Assembly (NCBI GenBank): GCA_003598085.1
Contig: QZKU01000107.1
Coordinates: forward strand, 1-37,904
Source of the DNA: Candidatus Abyssobacteria bacterium SURF_5
GTDB taxonomy: Bacteria > Abyssobacteria > SURF-5
Reading direction: 5' to 3'
DNA length: 37,904 bases
The notes below the pieces were generated by a model that saw nothing but the letters and a program-made list of their open reading frames with translations, had not been told where the DNA came from and did no database searches. Positions 356 to 17,227 of this stretch are shown piece after piece. The translations under genes were made by a program, and so were the position numbers. The stretch's first letter is position 1; every line of letters begins with the position of its first letter.

Positions 356-3300
356 ATGCATCAAGAAACAGATACAGTTAGAGCATCTCGTGACGGGCAC
401 GAGTATCACGAGGCTTGGACGGCGCGTAAGGCTCTCCAACTTTTGTGGGCTGATAGCAAACTCGTTGGGATTGCTGTCGAAGGGCTCTCTCCAACCGATC
501 AGGCGCGTGCATCGGCAAAAACGGTTCAGATTGCTGATATCACCCTTTATTTCGGGGGGCATCCGGCTTTCAAGCAAGCCGACCGGCTTACTATTGCCCA
601 ATTCAAATATTCAATAGCTAACGAAGATGAGTATTTCCGCGCAAGCCGGGCGAAAGAGACAATTGAAAAATTCGGTAACGCGTACCGTGATCTTAAGACA
701 AGATATGGCGCTGAAGCAGTGCAGAAGAAACTGGATTTTCAACTCATTACCAATCAGCCGATCTATGAGCCGCTGCTTCAGGCCGTTGAGGCTATTGCGA
801 AGGGATTGCCGCGAACTGGAGAGGTCGAAAAACAAGCGAGACAATTTGAGAAGGCTTCCGGGCTTCAAGGAAAGCCACTGGTCTCATTTGCCGCAAAGTG
901 CAATTTCATCGGCCGCTCCAAAAATCTTGCTGCGACCAAATATGAGCTGGCATGCCTGCTTGTGGATTGGTCTGCCACCAAAGACGCACTTGCGAGAGCT
1001 CGACTTGCCGGTTTGAAGGAGTTGGTCAGGAATAAAGCAGGGCATGCAGGTTCGGGTCGTAACGTCATAAGGCGTACTGATATACTCGCCGCGCTGGAGG
1101 TCAGTGATCCTGATGATCTTTTGCCGTGCAAGCCTGCACTTACAGATGTCGGTCCGGTCGTTGAGCGCCACCAACTCTCTGATGCCGTTTCACAGATCGA
1201 ATCCTTACAGAAGCCCCTTCTTATCCACTCTGCCGGCGGCGTTGGCAAGACCGTCTTCATGGAGAGTTTAGCTGGTAAGATACAAGAGAACTATGAAGTA
1301 GTTTTCTTTGACTGCTTTGGAGGTGGAGCTTACCGGGCTCTTGAGGACGCCCGGCATTTGCCACGAAACGGGCTTATGCATATCGCTAACACGCTCGCTT
1401 TTCGCAGCTTGTGTGACCCAATACTTCCGCATAGTTCCGACCCGCAAACATTGCTGAAGACATTCAGGCGGCGCCTCACCCAATGCGTTGAGACGATTTC
1501 GAGGATGAACCCCGGACGGAGCCTAGCGCTCTTCATCGATGCCATTGATAACGCCGATATAGCTGCGAAGCAGCGCGGCGATGACTCGTTTCCTGTCGAG
1601 CTGATACAGAGTTTGGATACTGAACCCATTCCAGGTGTTAAATTGATAGTCTCCTGTAGAACAGAACGCAAACCCGATACCTACGCCGAATATGACGAGC
1701 TTGAATTGCAGCCATTCAACATAAATGAAACCTCGACGTTCTTACGCGCCAGAATGAATAACGTCTCCCAAGGAGAGATAAGTATTGCCCAAGCACGTTC
1801 TGGCGGCAATCCGCGCGTGCTGGACTATCTTCTCATGAGCGGTCGTGGTCTTCTTGATGAGTCGGAGGTCAACAAGAAATTTGAACTGAACGACCTGATC
1901 GAAAAAAGGATTAAAGATGCGCTCACTACTGCGAGAGTGCGCGGCTATAAAAAGAACCATATTGATGCCTTCCTCGCTGGCCTTGCCGTTCTGCCGCCCC
2001 CTGTACCCCTTAACGAATATGCTGGAATACATAAAATCGAACTGAGTGCGATTGAAAGCTTTGCCTCCGATTTATTTCCATTGCTTGAACGCACCAATCA
2101 GGGATTGATGTTTCGAGACGAACCTACGGAAACGCTCATTCAGAAACGTTATGCGTCCTCTAATGAGCTTTTGCGTCATCTCGCTGAAAACCTTCTCGTC
2201 CGTCAGGATGTATCCGTCTACGCGGCTCGAGCTCTTCCGGGGCTTCTGCATCAACTTGACGATGGCGAGCGGCTTTTTAAACTGGCTTTCGATGACCGAA
2301 TCCCTGCAACAATCACGAGCACAGTAGGCAAGAGAAACATACGCTTCGCGAGGCTCAAGGCGGCAACACTGCACGCCGCCATGAAAAAAGACTACGATCG
2401 GTTGGTAAAACTGCTAATGGAGTTGTCCACGATTGCTGTCGTGGATCAGCGCGGCGCCGCTTACATCCTCGATCATCCTGAGCTTGTTATAGCCCTAAAG
2501 GATATTGATGCGACTCGCCGCCTCTTTGAGACACGAAGTGCTTGGCAAGGCACTCGCCATGCCAGGCTCACGATCGCCAATACGCTTTCGGGTGATCTTG
2601 AAGAAGCGCGGCGGCATGCTCGTACAACGGACGAATGGCTCGCACACTGGAGAAACACGGATCGAAAAGATGGGATAGACGAACCCGGCCCCGAACTCCC
2701 TGATATTGCAGCGATACCGTTCTTCCTCATTTCAAAAGGCGGCGCACAGGATGCAGTGTGGTTCTTAGAAGGATGGAAAGACTGGTATGCGTTCGAAGTT
2801 TGCGAGTATATCTTCAACTACTGTTATCTTGCACAAGCAATAGGTTCACAGTCGCCAGACCTATTGTCGGAATTTGTTGACGCACTGACGCAAGTCGGAC
2901 CCCTCGCAGCAGCCTTGTCTTTTGCGAAGAATTTAGCACCCAGGCGTAGGAAGCTTATCATCAAACTGGCAGATGTCTGCCGCAAGGCGACCGAGCTTGA
3001 CGGATCAGATTACTATCGACGCGAGAGAACATACGTGCTACAGGACGGGCTCCTTAAGGCCGCCGCCGATGCATTGATGCTAGGCCTTAATGATGAAGCT
3101 CTCTCGATATCGCTCCGCGCAACTCACCAACGCCCCGGCATTTGGTCCTTCCGGGAAAGGTTCCATAACCATCGCGAAGTCTTCCCATTTATTTTCCGTG
3201 CGGCCCTTGTAGCCGCCGCGGAGAATTCATCCCTTCATGAGAAAGACGTTCTACCCAAGGAATTGGTGCCAATCTGTGCCCGCATCCGCAGGATTGACAC

Positions 3301-6300
3301 AGGTAAGGCATTCCACGACAAATTCAAAGCGAGGTTAGCGAGGTGGCCTCGGAAACAGATCAAAGAGGACGATGAGAAAATGCACCCGCATGCCCTGAGC
3401 GATGAAGGGCATAGGGAAGCCGAGAATTTTATCAATAGTTGTCTAGAGCCGCTTCTTTCATTGGCTAAAGCTCTTTCATCTACCCTCGCTGCACCCGAAA
3501 ATGTAGTTGACAAGGTCTTCGTAGAACTGATCGAAACTTGGGACCAAACAAGCAAGAAGCGCGATTCTTATCTCACGGACAAAATCGATCATTTTTTTCA
3601 CAAGCTCGGTCTCGATGTGGTGGTTTTCGCGCTTTGGGTTCGTACCGAGCTTAAAGCGGCATCGGTCAAATCCTTCCTTACAGCGGTTCACAGTCGTTAC
3701 ATAGACCCGGAGGATCTCATTCGGCTTGTTTCAATCCTCGCAGAGAGAGAGCCGCTGCAAACATTAGCTGGCGAACAAGCTCAACACGCGCGGAAGCTTA
3801 TTCAAGCCGCGGATGATGTGAGCTATCGGGCATCTCTATATTCGCGTCTCGCTCGTGCCTTGTTACCAGCCAGTATCCATGAGGCATCTAATTATTTTCG
3901 CGAGGGGCTTGAGCAGATGGATGCGATCGGTTCCGGAGACGATCAATTCACAAACGAGCTTCTCTTATTCGCATCCTCACTCAAGGGAGATGAACTCAGC
4001 GAGCGCGATTTCCACACCTTGAGCAATATTTCTGAACTTAATATGGGCGAGCAACCGGAGAAGTTCTTCTGGGGTGCCTTTGGGCGGGGCCTTTCCAAAA
4101 CCGCTGGAGTCAGAGGCTTGGCAAAATTGAGCCGGTGGGATGATCGTTCGAAGATATCCCTTAGCTATACCCTTCTTCCATATCTCACAGCGCTCTTGGA
4201 ACAAGGCAAGATCGAGCCCAAGGACGCGCTTGCTCTGAACCGCCTTGCCAGACCTGTCGGGCATTATCACGATCCTATGGAGGACTTTACCAAGGCGATC
4301 CACGATAGGGCAGGCCCAGACAGTGAGACTATCACTGCGCTCATTCAACAATTCGAAGATGACAATCCTGGTTTGTGGATGGGAAACACCATCGATCGGC
4401 TTGTGGCGCTTGCCGGAAACGTTCTCGGTTTTTCATCCAAGACGGCCCGTCATCTTCGCGCTGCCCGTAAACTCCATGAAGAAGTACGAAATAAGCGGAA
4501 TGAGCGGAATTACAATTGGGATGTGCCGAACGCCCATGTGCGAAAGCGAACAGAGAGAGGGAGTCGTGAGGACCGTGAAGCTTTGAAATGTATTGCCAAG
4601 TCCACCGACCCAACAGATCAGTCTTCTCTCAATCAGGCGATTACCACCCTCGATGGGCCACAACATACATACGAGCTAAAAGACAACTTTTTTGCAGTGC
4701 TTCGAGCCAAAGTCCCTTTTGGCGCGCGTGCGAAATATATCGAGAATATCTGCGAATTGGAGCATTTGCTTTTCGACCGGAAGATTGAGGAATTGAAGGG
4801 TTGCAAGCAGGCGTGGACACCATCATCCGCTTCGCTCAATCCGGTCTATGAGGGCGCGGGTATTCGCCTGATTCAGCTCCATGCCGATGAAATGATTGCC
4901 TATGGCATGCTCTCCGGTTCCAGGGTTAGGGAAATTTCTGATCTCACAGGCATTGCTGATTTCGACCTTGTTCTCGAGCTGATCAAGGTCTTTGGGCAGT
5001 TAGAAAACACCATTGCTGGGGCGGTATGGCTCACACTGGCTTCATTCATTTGCCGGAGAGCAAAGGCCGGCATGGGCGAAGATGCTCTTACAAGGCTACT
5101 GCGTAGTCCCGCTGCCGAGCTTGCCGATAATGTTGCCGATGGAAAATGGAAGGATGGACTTTATCCGAGGAATGACATCACAGCGGTTGCGGCCGGGCTT
5201 TTGTGGCGCGTGCTTGGTTCTCCCTACGCAGTAGCTAGATGGCGTGCCGCACATAGCATCCGCTGCTTAGCCGCATTTGGGCGATGGCAGATAATCGATC
5301 ACTTGGTTGGTAATATTGAGTCTCAAGAGGCCGGACCTTTCCAAGCGCCCGAACTCACCTTTTACTATTTGCACGCGCGTCTTTGGCTTCTTATTGCTCT
5401 CGCGCGGATGGCGCGCGATTATCCCGAAGCAATAGCCCGCTATAAAGACATCCTTTTTTCAATTGCTACGGAGCAAGAAAACCCGCATGCCCTTATGCGC
5501 CATTTCGCTGCGCAGGCATTGCTCACATGTGTGGATGCGGGAAGACTCCAATTGCAGGCAAATATGGAAAAACTCCTTCGAAACGTTAATCTATCACCGC
5601 ACCCACGCCTGAAAAAAAAGATTAGAACGCATGATTTTTACTCGGGACGTCCAAAAACTGCCCCCAGTCCGGAATTCAAATTCGACCTTGACTATGACTT
5701 TCATAAACATGATGTAGACAACTTGAGCCATGTCTTTGGCCAGCCGTGCTGGAAAGTCGTCGACATGATATCTGCAATTGTACATGAGCTTGATCCTAAT
5801 GTTACCAGCATGTATGAGTCAGGCGGAAGAGAATCGTACAATCACAGATTCCGGGGGATAACTACTCGATATCATGGATACGGTCAGCAACTGGGTTGGC
5901 ACGCGCTTTTCTTTGCCGCCGGTAAGCTTCTTGCGACCGCTCCGGTGACAGACGATTGGTGGTGTAAGGACGATCCCTGGGGTGAATGGCTCGGGCGCTA
6001 TCTTTTAACTCGCCAGGACGGGTTATGGCTTTCCGATGGCACCGAGAGGGTTCCACTTGACACAATTGAACCCCTGCTTGAAAAGAAGAAGGGGCTTGTA
6101 GTCACCAGTGACCGCGACACACTTTTGCGACTTGCTGGAGTAACCACGCGCATTGGCAAAGAGCTTGTTGTTGGGGGAAGATGGTTCTCAGCCGATGGTA
6201 TCAAAGTCGGAATTTCATCTGCGTTGGTTGCTCCTGATAAAGCTGTGCGGGCTGTAAGAAAGCTCATTCGTGAGGAGCCAATGCTTGTATGGATTCCTGC

Positions 6301-6805
6301 GTTTCATGGGGCCGAAGATGACCTCGATAATTCACCAAGCGAAGAAAAAAAGGAATATACACCTTGGATAGTGTGTCCGTACGGTGAGGCACGACTTGAC
6401 GAGCACGATCCCTACGGAGTGCCTTGCGCCAATTTCAGACCGCGCTTGGCACGGGCTCTTTCCGATTTATGTTCGATCACCAGCACTGATCCATTTGGCA
6501 GGGTATGGCGGGACAAGCGAGGAAGGTCGATTTTGCGCGCACAGGCTTGGGGTCGAGAGAATAGAGATTCTGGTGAAGACGTATATCCCGGCCATCGCCT
6601 GCTTTGTAGCTCATCCGTGCTCAAGAAGATACTCAACAAATATGATAAAAACCTGCTCTTGCTCATAAAGCTTGAGCGCTATGAGAAAAAATATCAGGAA
6701 CTTAGCAAGTGGACTCATACCATCGCTGTTGTTCGAATCACCAAGGCACTCAAACTTCAGTATTTCAAGGGCCGCATCAATCACCTTCACAAGTCTGAGT
6801 TCTGA
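356..6805 (+). CDS. Avs-type antiphage protein: Cap4/DUF4297-like nuclease - STAND NTPase - long C-terminal repeat sensor
   Basis: This is a 2149-residue protein with the architecture of Avs (AVAST) antiphage STAND proteins, closest in layout to type 3 (Avs3). Residues 14-135 look like a PD-(D/E)xK nuclease of the Cap4/DUF4297 type: GHEYHEAW near the start, E42, D61 in QIADITL, and Q82-x-K84 in QFKYS. The STAND NTPase follows, with Walker A GGVGKT (294-299), Walker B LALFIDAID (390-398) and VSCRTER at about 432-438. The remaining 1600 or so residues have no enzyme motif and look like mostly helical repeats, the usual target-sensing part. In known Avs proteins, binding of a phage terminase or portal causes tetramer formation and nuclease activation that degrades DNA and stops infection. 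The start is the first ATG; its ribosome-binding site is weak. The gene is more AT-rich than those further right. Membership of the wider family is firm; the exact subtype and the trigger are inferred. Confidence 0.85.
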   Translation: MHQETDTVRASRDGHEYHEAWTARKALQLLWADSKLVGIAVEGLSPTDQARASAKTVQIADITLYFGGHPAFKQADRLTIAQFKYSIANEDEYFRASRAKETIEKFGNAYRDLKTRYGAEAVQKKLDFQLITNQPIYEPLLQAVEAIAKGLPRTGEVEKQARQFEKASGLQGKPLVSFAAKCNFIGRSKNLAATKYELACLLVDWSATKDALARARLAGLKELVRNKAGHAGSGRNVIRRTDILAALEVSDPDDLLPCKPALTDVGPVVERHQLSDAVSQIESLQKPLLIHSAGGVGKTVFMESLAGKIQENYEVVFFDCFGGGAYRALEDARHLPRNGLMHIANTLAFRSLCDPILPHSSDPQTLLKTFRRRLTQCVETISRMNPGRSLALFIDAIDNADIAAKQRGDDSFPVELIQSLDTEPIPGVKLIVSCRTERKPDTYAEYDELELQPFNINETSTFLRARMNNVSQGEISIAQARSGGNPRVLDYLLMSGRGLLDESEVNKKFELNDLIEKRIKDALTTARVRGYKKNHIDAFLAGLAVLPPPVPLNEYAGIHKIELSAIESFASDLFPLLERTNQGLMFRDEPTETLIQKRYASSNELLRHLAENLLVRQDVSVYAARALPGLLHQLDDGERLFKLAFDDRIPATITSTVGKRNIRFARLKAATLHAAMKKDYDRLVKLLMELSTIAVVDQRGAAYILDHPELVIALKDIDATRRLFETRSAWQGTRHARLTIANTLSGDLEEARRHARTTDEWLAHWRNTDRKDGIDEPGPELPDIAAIPFFLISKGGAQDAVWFLEGWKDWYAFEVCEYIFNYCYLAQAIGSQSPDLLSEFVDALTQVGPLAAALSFAKNLAPRRRKLIIKLADVCRKATELDGSDYYRRERTYVLQDGLLKAAADALMLGLNDEALSISLRATHQRPGIWSFRERFHNHREVFPFIFRAALVAAAENSSLHEKDVLPKELVPICARIRRIDTGKAFHDKFKARLARWPRKQIKEDDEKMHPHALSDEGHREAENFINSCLEPLLSLAKALSSTLAAPENVVDKVFVELIETWDQTSKKRDSYLTDKIDHFFHKLGLDVVVFALWVRTELKAASVKSFLTAVHSRYIDPEDLIRLVSILAEREPLQTLAGEQAQHARKLIQAADDVSYRASLYSRLARALLPASIHEASNYFREGLEQMDAIGSGDDQFTNELLLFASSLKGDELSERDFHTLSNISELNMGEQPEKFFWGAFGRGLSKTAGVRGLAKLSRWDDRSKISLSYTLLPYLTALLEQGKIEPKDALALNRLARPVGHYHDPMEDFTKAIHDRAGPDSETITALIQQFEDDNPGLWMGNTIDRLVALAGNVLGFSSKTARHLRAARKLHEEVRNKRNERNYNWDVPNAHVRKRTERGSREDREALKCIAKSTDPTDQSSLNQAITTLDGPQHTYELKDNFFAVLRAKVPFGARAKYIENICELEHLLFDRKIEELKGCKQAWTPSSASLNPVYEGAGIRLIQLHADEMIAYGMLSGSRVREISDLTGIADFDLVLELIKVFGQLENTIAGAVWLTLASFICRRAKAGMGEDALTRLLRSPAAELADNVADGKWKDGLYPRNDITAVAAGLLWRVLGSPYAVARWRAAHSIRCLAAFGRWQIIDHLVGNIESQEAGPFQAPELTFYYLHARLWLLIALARMARDYPEAIARYKDILFSIATEQENPHALMRHFAAQALLTCVDAGRLQLQANMEKLLRNVNLSPHPRLKKKIRTHDFYSGRPKTAPSPEFKFDLDYDFHKHDVDNLSHVFGQPCWKVVDMISAIVHELDPNVTSMYESGGRESYNHRFRGITTRYHGYGQQLGWHALFFAAGKLLATAPVTDDWWCKDDPWGEWLGRYLLTRQDGLWLSDGTERVPLDTIEPLLEKKKGLVVTSDRDTLLRLAGVTTRIGKELVVGGRWFSADGIKVGISSALVAPDKAVRAVRKLIREEPMLVWIPAFHGAEDDLDNSPSEEKKEYTPWIVCPYGEARLDEHDPYGVPCANFRPRLARALSDLCSITSTDPFGRVWRDKRGRSILRAQAWGRENRDSGEDVYPGHRLLCSSSVLKKILNKYDKNLLLLIKLERYEKKYQELSKWTHTIAVVRITKALKLQYFKGRINHLHKSEF

Positions 6806-7708: not shown

Positions 7709-7830
7709 TGGATTGCTTCATCTTCCGTTCTTCCTGACATTTCCGTTCACAACTTTGTCGTTGTTCAGGAGTCCGGCGCGTGGTTGAATAGCCTCAAAAG
7801 CGACTGACAAACGGTAAAGGGGAGGCTGAC

Positions 7831-9018
7831 ATGAAGCTGCTTGACCACATCGCGAAAATGCTTGGATACGAAAAGGCGCGCCACGTGCGCGAGATACTGG
7901 TTGACGAGTTCGAGGAGCGGCTGGGCAAGGACCGGCCGGAAAATTATGAAGACTATGCGATTGCCTACGGGCAGGTCGTTTGGGTGTATGCCTGCGTGAG
8001 CACGATCGCGACGGCCATCGCGGGCGTCCCCCTGCGCGCCTACCGCAAGAAGGCTGATGCTATCGAGGAAGTTTCCGACAGCCGGCTTGCCCGCCTGCTC
8101 TCCGACGTCAACCCGCACATGTCGTCTTACGACCTGTGGGAGGCGACGGCCTCATTCCTCGAGCTCTCCGGCAACTGCTACTGGGAGATCGAGAAAGACG
8201 AGAAGGGAGTGCCCTCCGCCATCTATCCGATGCGGCCCGACCGCGTCAAGATCGTGCCTGACCGCTCGAACTTCGTTATGGGCTACATCTATGAGATCAA
8301 CGGCCGCAGCGTCTCGCTCGAGGCTGACGAGGTCGTCCATTTCAGGTACTTCAACCCCGCCAACGAATACTACGGCCTCGGCCCGATCTCGGCCATCCGC
8401 AACTCGATCATCGTCGATCAGTATTCGGTCGCCTACAACAAGGCCTTCTTCAAGAACGGCGCGCATCCGGGGGGAGTCCTCGAAACCAGTTCGTCGTTGA
8501 GCGATGAGACGTTCAATCGCCTGAGAAAACAGTGGGAGGAGGGTCATAAGGGGTCCGCGCACGCGCATCGCATCGCCGTCCTGGAGGAGGGGCTCTCGTA
8601 CAAGCCGATCGGCCTCAGCCCGCGCGATATGGAGTTCCTCAACCAGCGCAAGTTCTGCCGCGAGGAGATCTGCGCCACGTTCAAGGTGCCGCCCGCGCTC
8701 GTCGGCGTCTATGAGTACGCCAACTACGCGAACGCCGAGCACCAGAACAAGGCGTTCTGGCAGAAGACGATCATCCCGAAACTGCGCAAGCTCGAGCTCA
8801 AGCTGGATAACTCGCTGCTGCCGAAGTTCGCTTCCGAGACGGATGGGGCCGACTTCGTCAGGTTCGATACATCCGCCGTCGATGCGCTCAAGGAGAACGA
8901 GAACGTCAAATCGCAGGTGCAGGAGCGGCTCGTGCGCGCCGGCATCATGACCATCAACGAGGTCCGCCGCCGCGAAAACCTGCCGCCCGTTACGTGGGGC
9001 GATAGCTTCGGAACATGA
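7831..9018 (+). CDS. phage portal protein, HK97 family (solitary)
   Basis: The 395-residue product is a full-length HK97/lambda-type portal protein (Phage_portal family). Portals form the dodecameric ring at one capsid vertex through which DNA enters and leaves. Family features seen: the early stretch VVWVYACVSTIATAIAGVPL, the central SGNCYWEIEKD region, VVHFRYFNPANEYYGLGPIS, and the C-terminal CREEICATFKVPPALVG with NYANAEHQNKAFW. Start: ATG with a strong GGGGAGG five bases upstream (7819-7825). No terminase, head protease, capsid or tail gene is present on either side, so this is a prophage remnant or a retained single gene. The reading frame is intact, and a terminator follows at 9091. Its position about 1 kb from an Avs-like gene is notable because portal proteins trigger Avs4. 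Confidence 0.93.
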   Translation: MKLLDHIAKMLGYEKARHVREILVDEFEERLGKDRPENYEDYAIAYGQVVWVYACVSTIATAIAGVPLRAYRKKADAIEEVSDSRLARLLSDVNPHMSSYDLWEATASFLELSGNCYWEIEKDEKGVPSAIYPMRPDRVKIVPDRSNFVMGYIYEINGRSVSLEADEVVHFRYFNPANEYYGLGPISAIRNSIIVDQYSVAYNKAFFKNGAHPGGVLETSSSLSDETFNRLRKQWEEGHKGSAHAHRIAVLEEGLSYKPIGLSPRDMEFLNQRKFCREEICATFKVPPALVGVYEYANYANAEHQNKAFWQKTIIPKLRKLELKLDNSLLPKFASETDGADFVRFDTSAVDALKENENVKSQVQERLVRAGIMTINEVRRRENLPPVTWGDSFGT

Positions 9019-13031: not shown

Positions 13032-13391
13032 CTATCCTGCCGTCAGCTTCTTCAGCGTCTCCACCAGCCTGCGCGAATCGAGCGGCCTCGGGAAATAATC
13101 ATGGTTGCCTTCAGCCGAATTCTGGATGTCGCTGGTGAACACGATCGGCGTCCGCGAAAGGAGCGGGTCGGCCTGCATCCGGGCGGCGAGCTCGAACCCC
13201 GAGCGGCCGGGCATGACTACCTCGAGCACCACCGCGCCGGGGCGCTCGCGCCGCATCAGCCCCATCGCCTTCAGCGGCTGATCACAGACGGAAGCCTGAA
13301 ACCCGTTCTGCTTAAGAAGCGCCCCCACCTTGCCGGCGCGGGTGCCATCCGTATCAACGATCATCACCTTTATCTGTCTCGCAATTGACAA
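13032..13391 (-). CDS. single-domain receiver-like protein lacking the phospho-acceptor Asp
   Basis: The 119-residue product has the full CheY-like receiver fold pattern and no output domain. The acidic pocket is present (D13 and D15 in IVDTDG) and so is the switch Thr (T86 in IVFTSD). The phospho-acceptor position in VVLEVVMPG is Glu57 instead of Asp, and the conserved Lys is Arg102 (FPRPL). Asp-to-Glu at this position often mimics the phosphorylated state, so a constitutive or phosphorylation-independent regulator is likely. The start is a TTG preceded by AAGGAG at good spacing. It follows the CI-like repressor gene by 32 bases on the same strand, so the two probably share the leftward promoter at 14057-14085. 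The role of this pairing is unknown. Confidence 0.85.
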   Translation of the reverse strand: MSIARQIKVMIVDTDGTRAGKVGALLKQNGFQASVCDQPLKAMGLMRRERPGAVVLEVVMPGRSGFELAARMQADPLLSRTPIVFTSDIQNSAEGNHDYFPRPLDSRRLVETLKKLTAG

Positions 13392-13423: not shown

Positions 13424-14035
13424 TCAGAGCGGTATCTTTATCTCCGCGATCCGGTAAAACTTCACGTCGCTTCCTTCTTTGATCACGATGCCTTTGTACT
13501 TCGAATTGAGCGGCTCGAGCACGATCTGGTTACCGCGTTTCATGAACCGCTTGATGGTGACTCCCTGCTCCGATTTGGCCAGCACGATGTCGCCCGGGTC
13601 GCACTGCAGGTTCGGCGACACCAGGAGATAATCCCCCTCCTGGATTCTTCCGCCGACCATGCTATCGCCTTCAGCAATTACATAAAAGGCGTTCGGGTCC
13701 TGCGAGTCGGTAAGCTTGTAATCCGCGCCGAAACCCGGCGGAAACTCCAGATCGCCGGCATCCATCCACTCGCCGCAGGACACCCGATTGATCACCGGTA
13801 TATACCGGTACCTGGTGGGAACGACCGGCGAGACCGGGCCTATGATGATCTCTGAAAGCGATACATTCAAAGCCTTGGCTATCCTCTCTAGAACCTCGAG
13901 CGATGGATTCTTTTTCCCGCTCTCTATCTCGATGACGTACGATTGAGAGATGCCGGCCTTCTGCGCGAGCTCCGAACTGGTCATTTTCGGGACCCGCGAC
14001 TTCCGCAAAAACCTTATTTTTTCGCCAATTCTCAT
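13424..14035 (-). CDS. CI/LexA-like phage-type repressor (XRE helix-turn-helix + S24 peptidase)
   Basis: The 203-residue repressor has an N-terminal XRE helix-turn-helix (SSELAQKAGISQSYVIEIESG) and a C-terminal S24 self-cleaving domain. Numbered from the chosen start, the catalytic dyad is Ser125 (EGDSMVG) and Lys162 (VTIKRF), and the probable cleavage site is Cys87-Gly88 (VSCGEW), so RecA-stimulated autocleavage is expected. The frame extends seven codons upstream to 14056, but the ATG at 14035 is preferred: it has GGGAG eight bases upstream, and the TTGACA/TAAAAT promoter (14057-14085) leaves no room for the earlier one. It is divergent from the small gene at 14186 and probably binds the palindrome at 14133-14170. 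No phage structural genes lie nearby. Confidence 0.93.
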   Translation of the reverse strand: MRIGEKIRFLRKSRVPKMTSSELAQKAGISQSYVIEIESGKKNPSLEVLERIAKALNVSLSEIIIGPVSPVVPTRYRYIPVINRVSCGEWMDAGDLEFPPGFGADYKLTDSQDPNAFYVIAEGDSMVGGRIQEGDYLLVSPNLQCDPGDIVLAKSEQGVTIKRFMKRGNQIVLEPLNSKYKGIVIKEGSDVKFYRIAEIKIPL

Positions 14036-14056
14036 GGCAATAACTCCCTGCGCCAT

Positions 14057-14085
14057 ATTTTACACGCGAACGCCCGATTTGTCAA
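14057..14085 (-). promoter_or_regulatory. leftward promoter for the CI-like gene
   Basis: On the minus strand, TTGACA (14085-14080) and TAAAAT (14062-14057) are 17 bases apart. Transcription would start near 14050, giving a short leader before the ATG at 14035. Confidence 0.7.
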
Positions 14086-14123
14086 TTGTCCCTGATATTT
14101 TTCTTTTTTCTTCTACTTCCCTC

Positions 14124-14152
14124 TTGACAAATATATCGCTATATGCTATTAT
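14124..14152 (+). promoter_or_regulatory. rightward promoter of the CI/Mor module
   Basis: TTGACA (14124-14129) and TATTAT (14147-14152) are separated by 17 bases. The -10 box lies inside the palindromic operator, so repressor binding should block RNA polymerase. The expected start near 14159 precedes the ATG at 14186. Confidence 0.75.
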
Positions 14153-14170
14153 TATAGCTATAAGCGATAT
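14133..14170. promoter_or_regulatory. palindromic operator of the CI-like repressor
   Basis: A 38-base imperfect palindrome: the left arm 14133-14148 begins ATATCGCT and ends GCTA, and the right arm 14155-14170 is its reverse complement except for the central TATA/ATAT-type bases, around a six-base centre. It overlaps the rightward -10 box and sits between two divergent genes, one of which encodes a CI-like protein. Binding by that protein is inferred. Confidence 0.75.
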
Positions 14171-14185
14171 AACGGAGTGCGGGTA

Positions 14186-14407
14186 ATGGACGAGCACCAG
14201 CAAAACCTCACGACGCTCAAGCGCCAGCTCCGAGCGTGGGAACGCCACATCGGGGCGCTCGACATCGGCGACAGGAAAGAGTTCTCAAGCTGGCTCGCGC
14301 AGGCGCTCGACGCCGGCGAATTCGCCCTGCTCGTGGACGCCGAGATCGACAGGCGATCGCTGTGGGAGATATATCTCAATGAGCGGTTCGGCGTCTGGAG
14401 CGCTTGA
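14186..14407 (+). CDS. small protein of unknown function, first gene under the CI operator
   Basis: I do not recognise this 73-residue protein. It is charged, probably all helical, and begins MDEHQQNLTTLKRQ. It has no membrane segment, no Cys motif and no clear helix-turn-helix. Start: ATG with GGAG eight bases upstream, 27 bases after the predicted transcription start. Its place directly behind the CI-controlled promoter is that of Cro or another early regulator in phages, but no sequence feature confirms this. A GTG nine bases upstream is in frame and less likely. A Mor-like gene follows after 40 bases, so the two probably form an operon. Confidence 0.7.
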   Translation: MDEHQQNLTTLKRQLRAWERHIGALDIGDRKEFSSWLAQALDAGEFALLVDAEIDRRSLWEIYLNERFGVWSA

Positions 14408-14447
14408 ACATCGTGCGGTCACGGTGCTACCTCTGGAGGAAAGGAAG

Positions 14448-14807
14448 ATGCCGGCATACTTCAATGCAGAGAAACTGCTCTCGCCCGAGTTGCTGAGCGC
14501 GGTCCTGCAATGCATTCCCGAGCACGGCAGGAGCGGCGCAGTCCTCTATTTCGGCGAGGACTATTATGCGAAGCGCAACGGGCAGGTCATCGCGCTGTTT
14601 CGGATTTATCAGGACGACCCTCATTTTGGGAGCGTCTCGGAGATCCATGAGGCTCTCTCGGAGCAGTTCGGGCTTACCTGCCGGCAGATCTGCAGGATTC
14701 TCCAAGGCAATCGCGAGGCGGGCGCCAAACGCAAATTGATGCGGCGGCGGCCGGCCATCCTGCGCGTCAACAAGCCGGCGACGCCGAAGGAGCTTTCCTC
14801 GACGTGA
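14448..14807 (+). CDS. Mor-like transcription activator homologue
   Basis: The 119-residue product resembles the Mor/C family of Mu-like phage middle and late transcription activators. An N-terminal dimerisation-type segment (residues 1-60) is followed by a helix-turn-helix near residues 65-90 (EIHEALSEQFGLTCRQICRI) and a strongly basic tail. The frame is open further upstream, but the ATG at 14448 has a clear GGAGG (14435-14439) and is chosen. It is the second gene behind the CI-controlled promoter, matching a repressor to early gene to activator circuit. The similarity to Mor is moderate and was judged by eye; a generic DNA-binding protein is the alternative. Confidence 0.65.
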   Translation: MPAYFNAEKLLSPELLSAVLQCIPEHGRSGAVLYFGEDYYAKRNGQVIALFRIYQDDPHFGSVSEIHEALSEQFGLTCRQICRILQGNREAGAKRKLMRRRPAILRVNKPATPKELSST

Positions 14808-14887
14808 TGCAGTCCCTTCCCGTAGCGATCCTGACGACCGGCGGCAGCTTCTTTCTCGACTTTCTCCACCTTCCCTACAGAAAAAGA

Positions 14888-14921
14888 ATGGGCCGCGGAG
14901 GAATTTTTCCCCGCGGCCCAT
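14888..14921. terminator. strong bidirectional terminator between Mor-like gene and pilQ
   Basis: ATGGGCCGCGG (14888-14898) and CCGCGGCCCAT (14911-14921) are a perfect 11-base inverted repeat with a 12-base loop. Read on the minus strand it is followed by TTCTTTTT and ends the pil operon. Read on the plus strand it is followed by a T-rich stretch and can end the Mor-like operon. Confidence 0.9.
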
Positions 14922-14938
14922 CCACTTTTCTTTCTCTA

Positions 14939-17227
14939 TCAGCGGATAAGGTCGATCGATACCGACGGCTTGCGCGGCAGGTTTGCGAGTTCGTCGAATT
15001 TGATTTCCTGGCTCGGAATCAGCGGCGGACTCTCGACGATATGCACGGTCAGGAACACGAGCAACTCGGTGTCCCTATCCGAGGAGCCGACGTTTCTGAA
15101 GGCGTATTTCACTCCCGGCAGGTCTCCCAGGAAGGGCACCTTGCTCACGCTGAGAAGCTTGCGGTTTTCCCTCAGGCCGCCGAGAACCACCGTCTGGTGA
15201 TCTCGCACGATCAATGTGGTTTCGGCCCGTCTGGTGTCGACAATCGGCACCCCGGTAATCGTCGTGCCGGCAATCGAGTTCTGTTCGGGCTCGACCCTCA
15301 GGATTACGTATCCGTCGTGGGTTATCTGGGGGAGGACCTCCAGTTTTGTTCCGATCTCCTTGAAGGTGATATTCGAGAGCTGACCTCCCGAACTGGTCTG
15401 GGTTACGTCGTTGTAAGGGAATTCCTCGATGATCTCGATGCTCGCGGACTCGTTGTTCAGCGTCAGCACCTTCGGGTTGGCGAGAATGCGCGAGTCCGAA
15501 TTCTCCACGAGCGCCTGGATCATTACGCTCAGATTGATGTCGTCTATCAATGTTCCGACGCTGATATCCAAGCCGCCGAACGGCTTTGGCAGCAGCACGC
15601 CGGCGATGTCATTTCCATCGAAGCCCGGGCTGTTGTCATTGGTGTTGGTGAGATACCAGGTGATGCCGAGGTCGGCCTCGTCGGAAAGCACGGAATCGAG
15701 AATCAGCACCTCGATCAGCACCTGTTGCACGCGCCGGTCGATCTGGGGAATCAGTTCTCGAAGGCGATCGAGATTGGACGGAACATCGGTGATCAGCAGC
15801 ATGTTTGTTCGTTCGTCAACCTCGATTTTGCCGTTCGGCGACAGCAAAGTCTGAAATGTAGTTTTCGCTTGTTTAGCCTCCGCATAGCTCAGCGTGTACG
15901 TTTCGGTCCGCGTTTCGACCTGCGTTCCGAGCTGCGACAGCGGAACCACCCTGACGATGTTGTCGGTTTTTATATACCCGTAGCCGTTCACATTAAGGAC
16001 CGCATTCAGCGCCACGTCAAACGGGACATCGACAAGCCGTACCGTGACATTGCCGCGCACGTCTTTCCCGGCGAGAATATTCAAGTTCCCTTTCCTGGCG
16101 AGAATATCCAGGACGGCACTGAGGTCGGCATCCCGGAAATTCAGGGTGACCAGATTATTCATCTTCACCGCTTCAGGCTCCTTGGCGACGGCCGGAGCTG
16201 TCTCAGTCTCGGCGACCAGCTTTGCCTCTAGGACGGGCTGCTCGATCTTTTCGACTGGAACCTCGACTATCTGGTCTTTCGGTTCAACGCTTACCTCCGC
16301 AGTCGCAGGCTCTTCGACCTCCTGGACGGCGGGTTCATTCTCGGTCACAACTTCCGCGGTCGCGGTTTCTGTCTCGACAGCATCCGGAGCGGCCGCGACT
16401 TCTTCGACGGCCTCTTCTTCTATCATCTCATCGAGAGGAGCTTCTTCGGCTGCGGTTGCGGCAAGGATTTCTCCTATCTCGTCGACTTCCTGAACCTCGG
16501 GGGCAGCCTCATTCACCGGTTCCGCCATCTCGAGCGAGGGGGCGGAATCCTCCACAGGCGCCTCGACCGGCGCCGGCTCAGTCGGTTCTACCTGCGCAAG
16601 CATGAGATCGACTTTGGGGGAATCGGCGTTCACTTTGACGGCCGGCACCGCGACTATCTGAGCGGGCGCCTCCTCTTTCGGGAAATAGGCTTTTACGTTT
16701 TCTTCGCGTTTTTCGGGATCGTCAAGAGGAGTGCTGATGATGATATTATTGCCGTCACTCGTGATCGCGGGCGTTTTATCTTCGTCAAGATCAAGGACGA
16801 TCCGGGAGATGAGGGTCGGACTCACCCGATACTGACTGTTGCGCACCTCTTTTATCGGATCATCTTGCTTGAACGAATATGCCGGCGACGGCGACAGGTT
16901 TATGGTATCCCGAAGATCCACGACCAGGCGCCTGTTTTCCTTATACAGGTACGAGTCGTAGGCGGGCAAGCCGCTGAGCTGGAGAATGACCGAAACGCTT
17001 TCCGCTCCCGGCACAATATCTACTGAGTACAGAGTGTGTGCTTTCTGTGCAGCCTGAACGACCGTCGGATCTGCTCCATCCAGCCCAAGCAGTTCCAGCA
17101 ATTGAACCTTTCTCTGTTCAAGGCTGCCGCCCGCCGTCAGCGGCGGCGAGAGGAAGCCGACAAGAACAAACGCTGCGACTGCAATCAGAAGGACCCGGGA
17201 CATCTTTCTACTCACGAGGCTGCCCAT
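14939..17227 (-). CDS. pilQ: type IV pilus secretin PilQ
   Basis: This 762-residue protein is the outer-membrane secretin through which the type IV pilus passes. In order: signal peptide (about 10-32), one AMIN domain that anchors to peptidoglycan (about 65-168), a long Glu/Ala/Val/Pro-rich low-complexity linker (about 180-355), an STN domain (about 357-425, NLVTLNFRDADLSAVLDILA), a secretin N domain (about 435-500) and the C-terminal secretin barrel domain (about 540-745). The start follows GAGGAG, and pilQ begins seven bases after pilP ends. It is the last gene of pilMNOPQ and is followed by a strong terminator. The acidic linker of about 175 residues is unusually long and may span the periplasm. 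Confidence 0.95.
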   Translation of the reverse strand: MGSLVSRKMSRVLLIAVAAFVLVGFLSPPLTAGGSLEQRKVQLLELLGLDGADPTVVQAAQKAHTLYSVDIVPGAESVSVILQLSGLPAYDSYLYKENRRLVVDLRDTINLSPSPAYSFKQDDPIKEVRNSQYRVSPTLISRIVLDLDEDKTPAITSDGNNIIISTPLDDPEKREENVKAYFPKEEAPAQIVAVPAVKVNADSPKVDLMLAQVEPTEPAPVEAPVEDSAPSLEMAEPVNEAAPEVQEVDEIGEILAATAAEEAPLDEMIEEEAVEEVAAAPDAVETETATAEVVTENEPAVQEVEEPATAEVSVEPKDQIVEVPVEKIEQPVLEAKLVAETETAPAVAKEPEAVKMNNLVTLNFRDADLSAVLDILARKGNLNILAGKDVRGNVTVRLVDVPFDVALNAVLNVNGYGYIKTDNIVRVVPLSQLGTQVETRTETYTLSYAEAKQAKTTFQTLLSPNGKIEVDERTNMLLITDVPSNLDRLRELIPQIDRRVQQVLIEVLILDSVLSDEADLGITWYLTNTNDNSPGFDGNDIAGVLLPKPFGGLDISVGTLIDDINLSVMIQALVENSDSRILANPKVLTLNNESASIEIIEEFPYNDVTQTSSGGQLSNITFKEIGTKLEVLPQITHDGYVILRVEPEQNSIAGTTITGVPIVDTRRAETTLIVRDHQTVVLGGLRENRKLLSVSKVPFLGDLPGVKYAFRNVGSSDRDTELLVFLTVHIVESPPLIPSQEIKFDELANLPRKPSVSIDLIR

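Follow-up and report, generated by a model that had tools for sequence, protein, structure and literature searches.

Well-studied proteobacteria use phage-derived repressor-activator switches (AlpR/AlpA, PrtR/PrtN, RogA/GafYZ) to control tailocins, gene transfer agents and cell death. In the pyocin control system of Pseudomonas aeruginosa, the CI-like repressor PrtR stands over PrtN, an activator of phage-tail-type genes. P. aeruginosa also has AlpR, whose autocleavage frees AlpA, a positive regulator of other operons (PMC7969949). In Caulobacter crescentus the free-standing HTH and S24-like repressor RogA acts directly on the operon of the activator GafYZ, which turns on phage-derived gene-transfer-agent genes elsewhere in the chromosome (PMC9632790). 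The core genome of Streptococcus mutans encodes IrvR, a phage-repressor-like, LexA-like and RecA-independent repressor set over one adjacent gene (PMC7101444). On the side of the activator, the Mor protein of phage Mu recognises a pair of 5-bp inverted repeats, 6 bp apart and centred at -43.5, in place of the -35 element (PMC4390567).

Here we describe a candidate switch of this type in a stretch of 37,904 nucleotides from Candidatus Abyssobacteria bacterium SURF_5 (contig QZKU01000107.1), which we refer to as the window. The window's genome (G000) was compared with G001 and G002, the three representing three genera of the family, and about 383 other genomes were sampled. We consider it probable (about 0.72) that the locus is a host-encoded one-way derepression switch, in which an S24 repressor is placed over a Mor-like operon whose activator acts on promoters elsewhere. 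The features on which the analysis draws are listed by their position in the window.

7746..7789, plus strand: promoter-like motif upstream of the portal gene, ACAAC-TTTGTC-GTTGT, 17 nt, TGG-TTGAAT
7831..9018, plus strand: orphan HK97-type portal, 395 aa, 4.4 kb left of the switch and the nearest phage gene to it
13032..13391, minus strand: single-domain receiver (pseudo-response regulator), PF00072 E 1e-11, 33 bp downstream of the repressor
13424..14035, minus strand: HTH_3 and Peptidase_S24 repressor, 203 aa, predicted cleavage at Cys87-Gly88, catalytic Ser125 and Lys162
14057..14085, minus strand: repressor promoter, TTGACA-17-TAAAAT, with no copy of the operator
14124..14152, plus strand: rightward promoter, TTGACA-17-TATTAT
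14134..14150, unstranded: upstream operator, half-site TATCGCTA and a degenerate half, between -35 and -10
14153..14169, unstranded: main operator, TATAGCTATAAGCGATA, immediately 3' of the -10
14186..14407, plus strand: small first gene, 73 aa, predicted helical at low confidence, no family match
14448..14807, plus strand: Mor-like HTH protein, 119 aa, candidate transcription activator, start set by the conserved N-terminus
14886..14923, minus strand: hairpin terminator, scored on the pilQ strand
14939..17227, minus strand: pilQ, right of the hairpin

A repressor and its operators at one promoter

The repressor scored 58.9 bits against HTH_3 (cut-off 23) and 72 bits against Peptidase_S24 (cut-off 23.3) in Pfam. 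An earlier note on this DNA had read it as an S24 repressor with Ser125, Lys162 and a Cys-Gly site, and this was confirmed, as Cys87-Gly88 and both catalytic residues are invariant across the three genera. The Ser and Lys align with those of UmuD, and the C-terminal domain is nearest to those of UmuD and LexA. The start of the gene, formerly placed at 14056, was corrected to 14035 because 14056 adjoins the -10 box, which ends at 14057, such that a start there could not be used from this promoter, and because the orthologues start at the methionine of 14035. These orthologues, in G001 and G002, are 71-72% identical to the window copy, and third-position codon changes far outnumber those at first and second positions. 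The protein resembles phage repressors (phrog_4), its closest phage relatives being about 33% identical.

Against the LexA equivalog the repressor reached 59.9 bits, below the cut-off of 110.95. G000 encodes two distinct LexA equivalogs (222 and 203 bits; L003 1261-1884 and L005 1462-2073), and the repressor is therefore not the SOS LexA. The intact S24 active site suggests a response to DNA damage, with RecA most likely the trigger of autocleavage; no feature of the sequence marks that cleavage as RecA-dependent. A defence-system reading of the repressor was rejected, as the PADLOC matches span the HTH only. A relative of the repressor also occurs in G347, in a different context.

The divergent near-consensus promoters described previously were borne out, with 11 of 12 sigma70-type matches on each side (leftward, 14085-14057; rightward, 14124-14152). 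The hexamers and spacing of the rightward promoter are the same in all three genera. The equivalents of the repressor promoter are TTGACA-17-TAGAAT in G002 and TTGACA-17-TAATAT in G001, such that TTGACA-17-TAnnnT is common to the three. The intergenic stretch between the two promoters is longer in G001 and G002 than in the window.

The rightward -10 had been reported to carry a 38-base palindrome. An inverted repeat is indeed present at 14132-14171, with 18-nt arms that are 78% complementary, and an equally good repeat arose only once when the intergenic region was subjected to 400 dinucleotide shuffles. However, it is better read as two operators of about 17 bp, 19 bp apart (14134-14150 and 14153-14169), which flank the -10; a single palindrome is apparent because the outer half-sites of both operators are the good ones. 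The counterparts of the main operator are TATCGCTAATAGCGATA in G001, a perfect 17-bp palindrome, and AATCGCCACTAGCGATT in G002, while the upstream, weaker operator is found in the window and G002 and is weak in G001. When the three rightward promoters were aligned, a conserved block ran from TTGACA through TATTAT to the palindrome directly after it, in surrounding DNA that has diverged. In keeping with this conserved operator, the HTH stretch ISQSYVIEIESG of the repressor is invariant in the three genera.

Scanning for the operator 17-mer with up to three mismatches returned seven to eight places in each of the three genomes, fewer than in the control. The best match in each genome was the switch locus itself, and the 13 other sites that were checked all lay inside long open frames. 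A wider direct regulon of the repressor was rejected on these grounds, and the search for further copies of the palindrome that the earlier note had proposed yielded no outstanding second copy in G000, G001 or G002. Only one promoter is thus an evident target of the repressor. The proposal that the switch controls genes elsewhere fits if the control is exerted via the activator, the operator itself having no evident second target in the three genomes.

The Mor-like gene and the conserved module

The small first gene was confirmed at 14186-14407 as a gene matching no known family. A homologue with 46% identity was found in G002, and none was seen at the G001 locus.

The second gene had been called a Mor-like activator, a description that profile-profile comparison supports but that misses the Pfam threshold: against PF08765 the protein scored 12.4 bits (E 0.16), under the curated cut-off of 24.9, and a search of the whole genome with PF08765 returned nothing at E 0.05. 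With hhalign the Mor probability was 87-90%, versus 0.1-0.7% for three control alignments. Two of the three orthologues match Mor weakly (best E 0.013). The G001 and G002 proteins share 48% identity with the Mor-like protein of the window. Structure prediction (pLDDT 71) gave a helical model with an HTH, which is not diagnostic; its similarity to Mor (Z 4.8 and 4.3) was no better than that to unrelated HTH proteins, and Foldseek returned nothing at E < 0.001. The protein is accordingly named Mor-like and is not counted as a member of the Mor/C family. No homologue was found in 50,697 phage records, in viral contigs or in the other approximately 383 genomes; the single match among genome contigs, from an Oscillospiraceae genome, was set aside as it covered only the HTH.

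A gene absent from the earlier note adjoins the repressor in the window, and in G001 and G002 too. It encodes a single-domain receiver whose orthologues are 46-52% identical. In an alignment to MtrA, Glu57 stands where the phosphoacceptor Asp is expected and Arg102 takes the place of the conserved Lys; E57, T86 and R102 are invariant among the three genera. Based on these substitutions, the usual phosphorylation of this pseudo-receiver is probably not possible. Given the 33-bp gap, it is probably co-transcribed with the repressor.

The module of repressor, operator-promoter, Mor-like gene and pseudo-receiver is present in all three family genomes. The G002 locus comprises receiver, repressor, operator, small gene and Mor-like gene, and that of G001 is alike except for the small-gene homologue. 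At the end of the pil genes of G000 and G001, the Mor-like gene and pilQ are convergent; G001 has retained pilMNOPQ beside the switch, and the G002 module lies elsewhere, away from these genes. A terminator-like hairpin and pilQ do follow to the right of the switch, as the earlier note said; the hairpin was scored as a terminator on the pilQ strand and may act in both directions. Beside the switch, no integrase, structural or lysis gene could be recognised in any of the three genera, and Rfam had no match in the window. Elsewhere in G000, four tandem paralogous genes for HTH-cupin-type regulators were observed (L026 5596-8070, plus strand).

The description of the locus as a free-standing, domesticated switch was supported by its presence in three genera, with pilQ as neighbour in two, and by the lack of close phage relatives. 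Vertical inheritance rather than a recent prophage is what this distribution speaks for, since the module occurs in three genera while the phage relatives of the repressor are only about 33% identical and the Mor-like protein has none.

Scattered head genes and a shared promoter motif

The switch had been described as being without a phage. This was only partly right: no phage gene was recognised beside it, but the window contains a portal gene and there are head genes elsewhere in the genome. Each of the three genomes has a single portal gene. The orthologues are 81-82% identical with dN/dS of about 0.11-0.12, and in G001 and G002 the gene shares neighbours that are NmrA-like and MarR-like (named by sequence). 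Because of this identity, this constraint and the neighbours common to G001 and G002, the portal has most likely been inherited as part of the chromosome. An Avs3a-like gene (window 356-6805, plus strand) precedes the portal by about 1 kb; its 2149-aa product matches PADLOC Avs3a over the first approximately 800 residues (E 2e-213).

HK97-type capsid genes were identified at scattered chromosomal sites, one or two per genome in the three genomes, and the capsid loci include a protease and a head-tail adaptor. As expected of a gene transfer agent regulon, these chromosomes carry vertically inherited phage head genes. Tail-like matches near the head genes are weak, and no large terminase was found in about 2.2 of the 5.1 Mb of G000, searched with few queries. 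In the G000 head cluster (contig C31, L079 4617-14572, minus strand), protease, capsid and head-tail adaptor are accompanied by two large genes with weak baseplate/tail matches and by non-coding stretches between genes. A D5-type primase is located upstream of the G001 portal (L071 17978-19639, minus strand), and the promoter motif described below lies ahead of the primase.

The regions upstream of the G000 portal and the G000 prohead protease, which are on different contigs, are 88% identical over 65 bp. The same arrangement precedes the G001 protease, the G001 primase-portal operon, the G002 portal and the second G002 capsid, and these four sites have in common an 18-bp core, TTAACAAAAAGTTCSTTG. 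The motif was therefore found before six of the seven head-gene operons identified; at the seventh, the first G002 protease-capsid locus, it was absent from the stretch examined. The core is followed after 17-18 nt by TGG or TGA (ACG in one site) and a -10-like hexamer. In G000 the core reads ACAAC-N6-GTTGT or GTTGA, i.e., two 5-bp inverted repeats with 6 bp between them, while the repeats of the G001 and G002 motifs agree at only three of five positions.

The full pattern occurred five times, against zero in the control, in the approximately 2.2 Mb of the 5.1-Mb G000 that this count covers: at the portal, at the protease and at three repeat copies. The latter belong to an element without a long reading frame that starts with the head-gene promoter motif (L118 14684 to end, L123 1-237, and L172 about 1950-2457, minus strand); the two copies that were compared are about 96% identical, and there was no Rfam match. 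A matrix built from G001 and G002 ranked two of three checked G000 sites about 20th-45th among 4.4 million positions, and the G000 portal site scored below the listing threshold. Because of these rankings, the motif appears only moderately equivalent across genera, whereas the case for it within each lineage is strong. It is possible that this shared motif would be the target of the Mor-like protein.

Proposed mechanism and its relation to known switches

In the mechanism that we infer, from binding, signal and cleavage to activation and targets, the HTH-S24 repressor would be expressed constitutively, together with the pseudo-receiver protein. It would occupy both operators at the rightward promoter and so silence the operon that ends in the Mor-like gene. 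Self-cleavage at Cys87-Gly88, most likely on activation of RecA, would derepress the operon, and the Mor-like protein could then activate target promoters elsewhere in the chromosome. The best candidate targets would be the scattered phage head-gene promoters. That the Mor-like protein switches on dispersed phage-derived genes is less certain than that autocleavage releases it: what ties the switch to the head genes is circumstantial and consists of their joint presence in three genomes, the promoter layout and precedent. We offer only tentatively, at well under even odds, the idea that a dispersed, domesticated phage gene set, gene-transfer-agent-like or making defective particles, is under the master control of the switch via a Mor-type promoter shared by unlinked portal, protease-capsid and primase operons.

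A rather different possibility, to which we would likewise give well under even odds, is that the switch serves a local or host function, such as type IV pili or stress, and has no connection with phage genes. In that case host genes would be the targets of the Mor-like protein, and a signal other than DNA damage would reach the repressor via the pseudo-receiver. The adjoining pilQ of two genera, the Glu at the phosphoacceptor of the co-encoded pseudo-receiver and the precedent of IrvR for RecA-independent, LexA-like control (PMC7101444) are all consistent with this. However, the linkage to pil is gone in G002, the genes converge on pilQ and therefore are not co-transcribed with it, and no copy of the operator was found elsewhere in the three genomes.

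It is improbable that the locus is a decaying prophage remnant, i.e., the immunity region of a lost phage that is drifting and has no current role. The likeness of the repressor to phage repressors, the fact that the named family closest to the Mor-like protein is typical of phages, and the portal gene in the same window would agree with such an origin, yet module, operator and promoter spacing have persisted in three genera despite protein divergence of 28-52%, the repressor is under strong constraint, pilQ adjoins the switch in two genera, and no integrase or other phage gene was recognised beside it. Least credible, and in our view very improbable, is the bistable switch of the earlier note, in which mutual repression of the CI/Cro type would be expected. 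The divergent arrangement of the promoters, with a CI-like repressor on one side and a small first gene on the other, does recall such a circuit, but no Cro-like counter-repressor is present, the small gene has no HTH family and was not seen at the G001 locus, and the promoters are further apart in G001 and G002. Moreover, the repressor promoter lacks an operator, and neither autorepression nor a mutual-repression circuit is therefore indicated. One-way derepression fits these features better.

If the proposed control of head genes is correct, a catalytically intact SOS-type repressor would be combined with a Mor-type activator over dispersed head genes. A phage-derived particle system under DNA-damage control would then have a further origin, and the promoter motif would serve to find all genes of that system. 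The candidate switch is also of interest as it lies in a family without a relative closer than domain level among the other sampled genomes.

Compared with PrtR/PrtN, the activator differs, as PrtN belongs to another family than the Mor-like protein. The target genes differ also: a match to the tail-sheath family (PF04984) was found in none of the three genomes, and a tailocin was rejected on that basis. AlpR/AlpA is similar in its release of a positive regulator by autocleavage; however, AlpA is an antiterminator and not Mor-like, and its lysis genes are within the alpRABCDE set, whereas the window switch has no adjoining lysis gene (PMC7969949). IrvR cleaves at Ala-Gly, as opposed to the predicted Cys87-Gly88 here, and IrvA differs in resembling a Cro regulator and working partly via its own mRNA (PMC7101444). 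The likeness to Mor/C of Mu is a profile-level similarity of the Mor-like protein over the HTH, together with candidate sites in G000 that, as in the Mu middle promoter, consist of two 5-bp inverted repeats 6 bp apart and overlap the -35 (PMC4390567). These sites are centred near -40, if the hexamer is the -10, versus -43.5 in Mu; the protein falls under the Pfam cut-off, and the matching of the repeats in G001 and G002 is incomplete. RogA/GafYZ shares the free-standing repressor set on an activator operon and activation at a distance, which we propose likewise here; GafYZ is not Mor-like, RogA lacks the key catalytic residues that the window repressor retains (PMC9632790), and no large terminase was found in the part of G000 searched. 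The switch described here is marked by a precisely conserved operator and a co-encoded pseudo-receiver.
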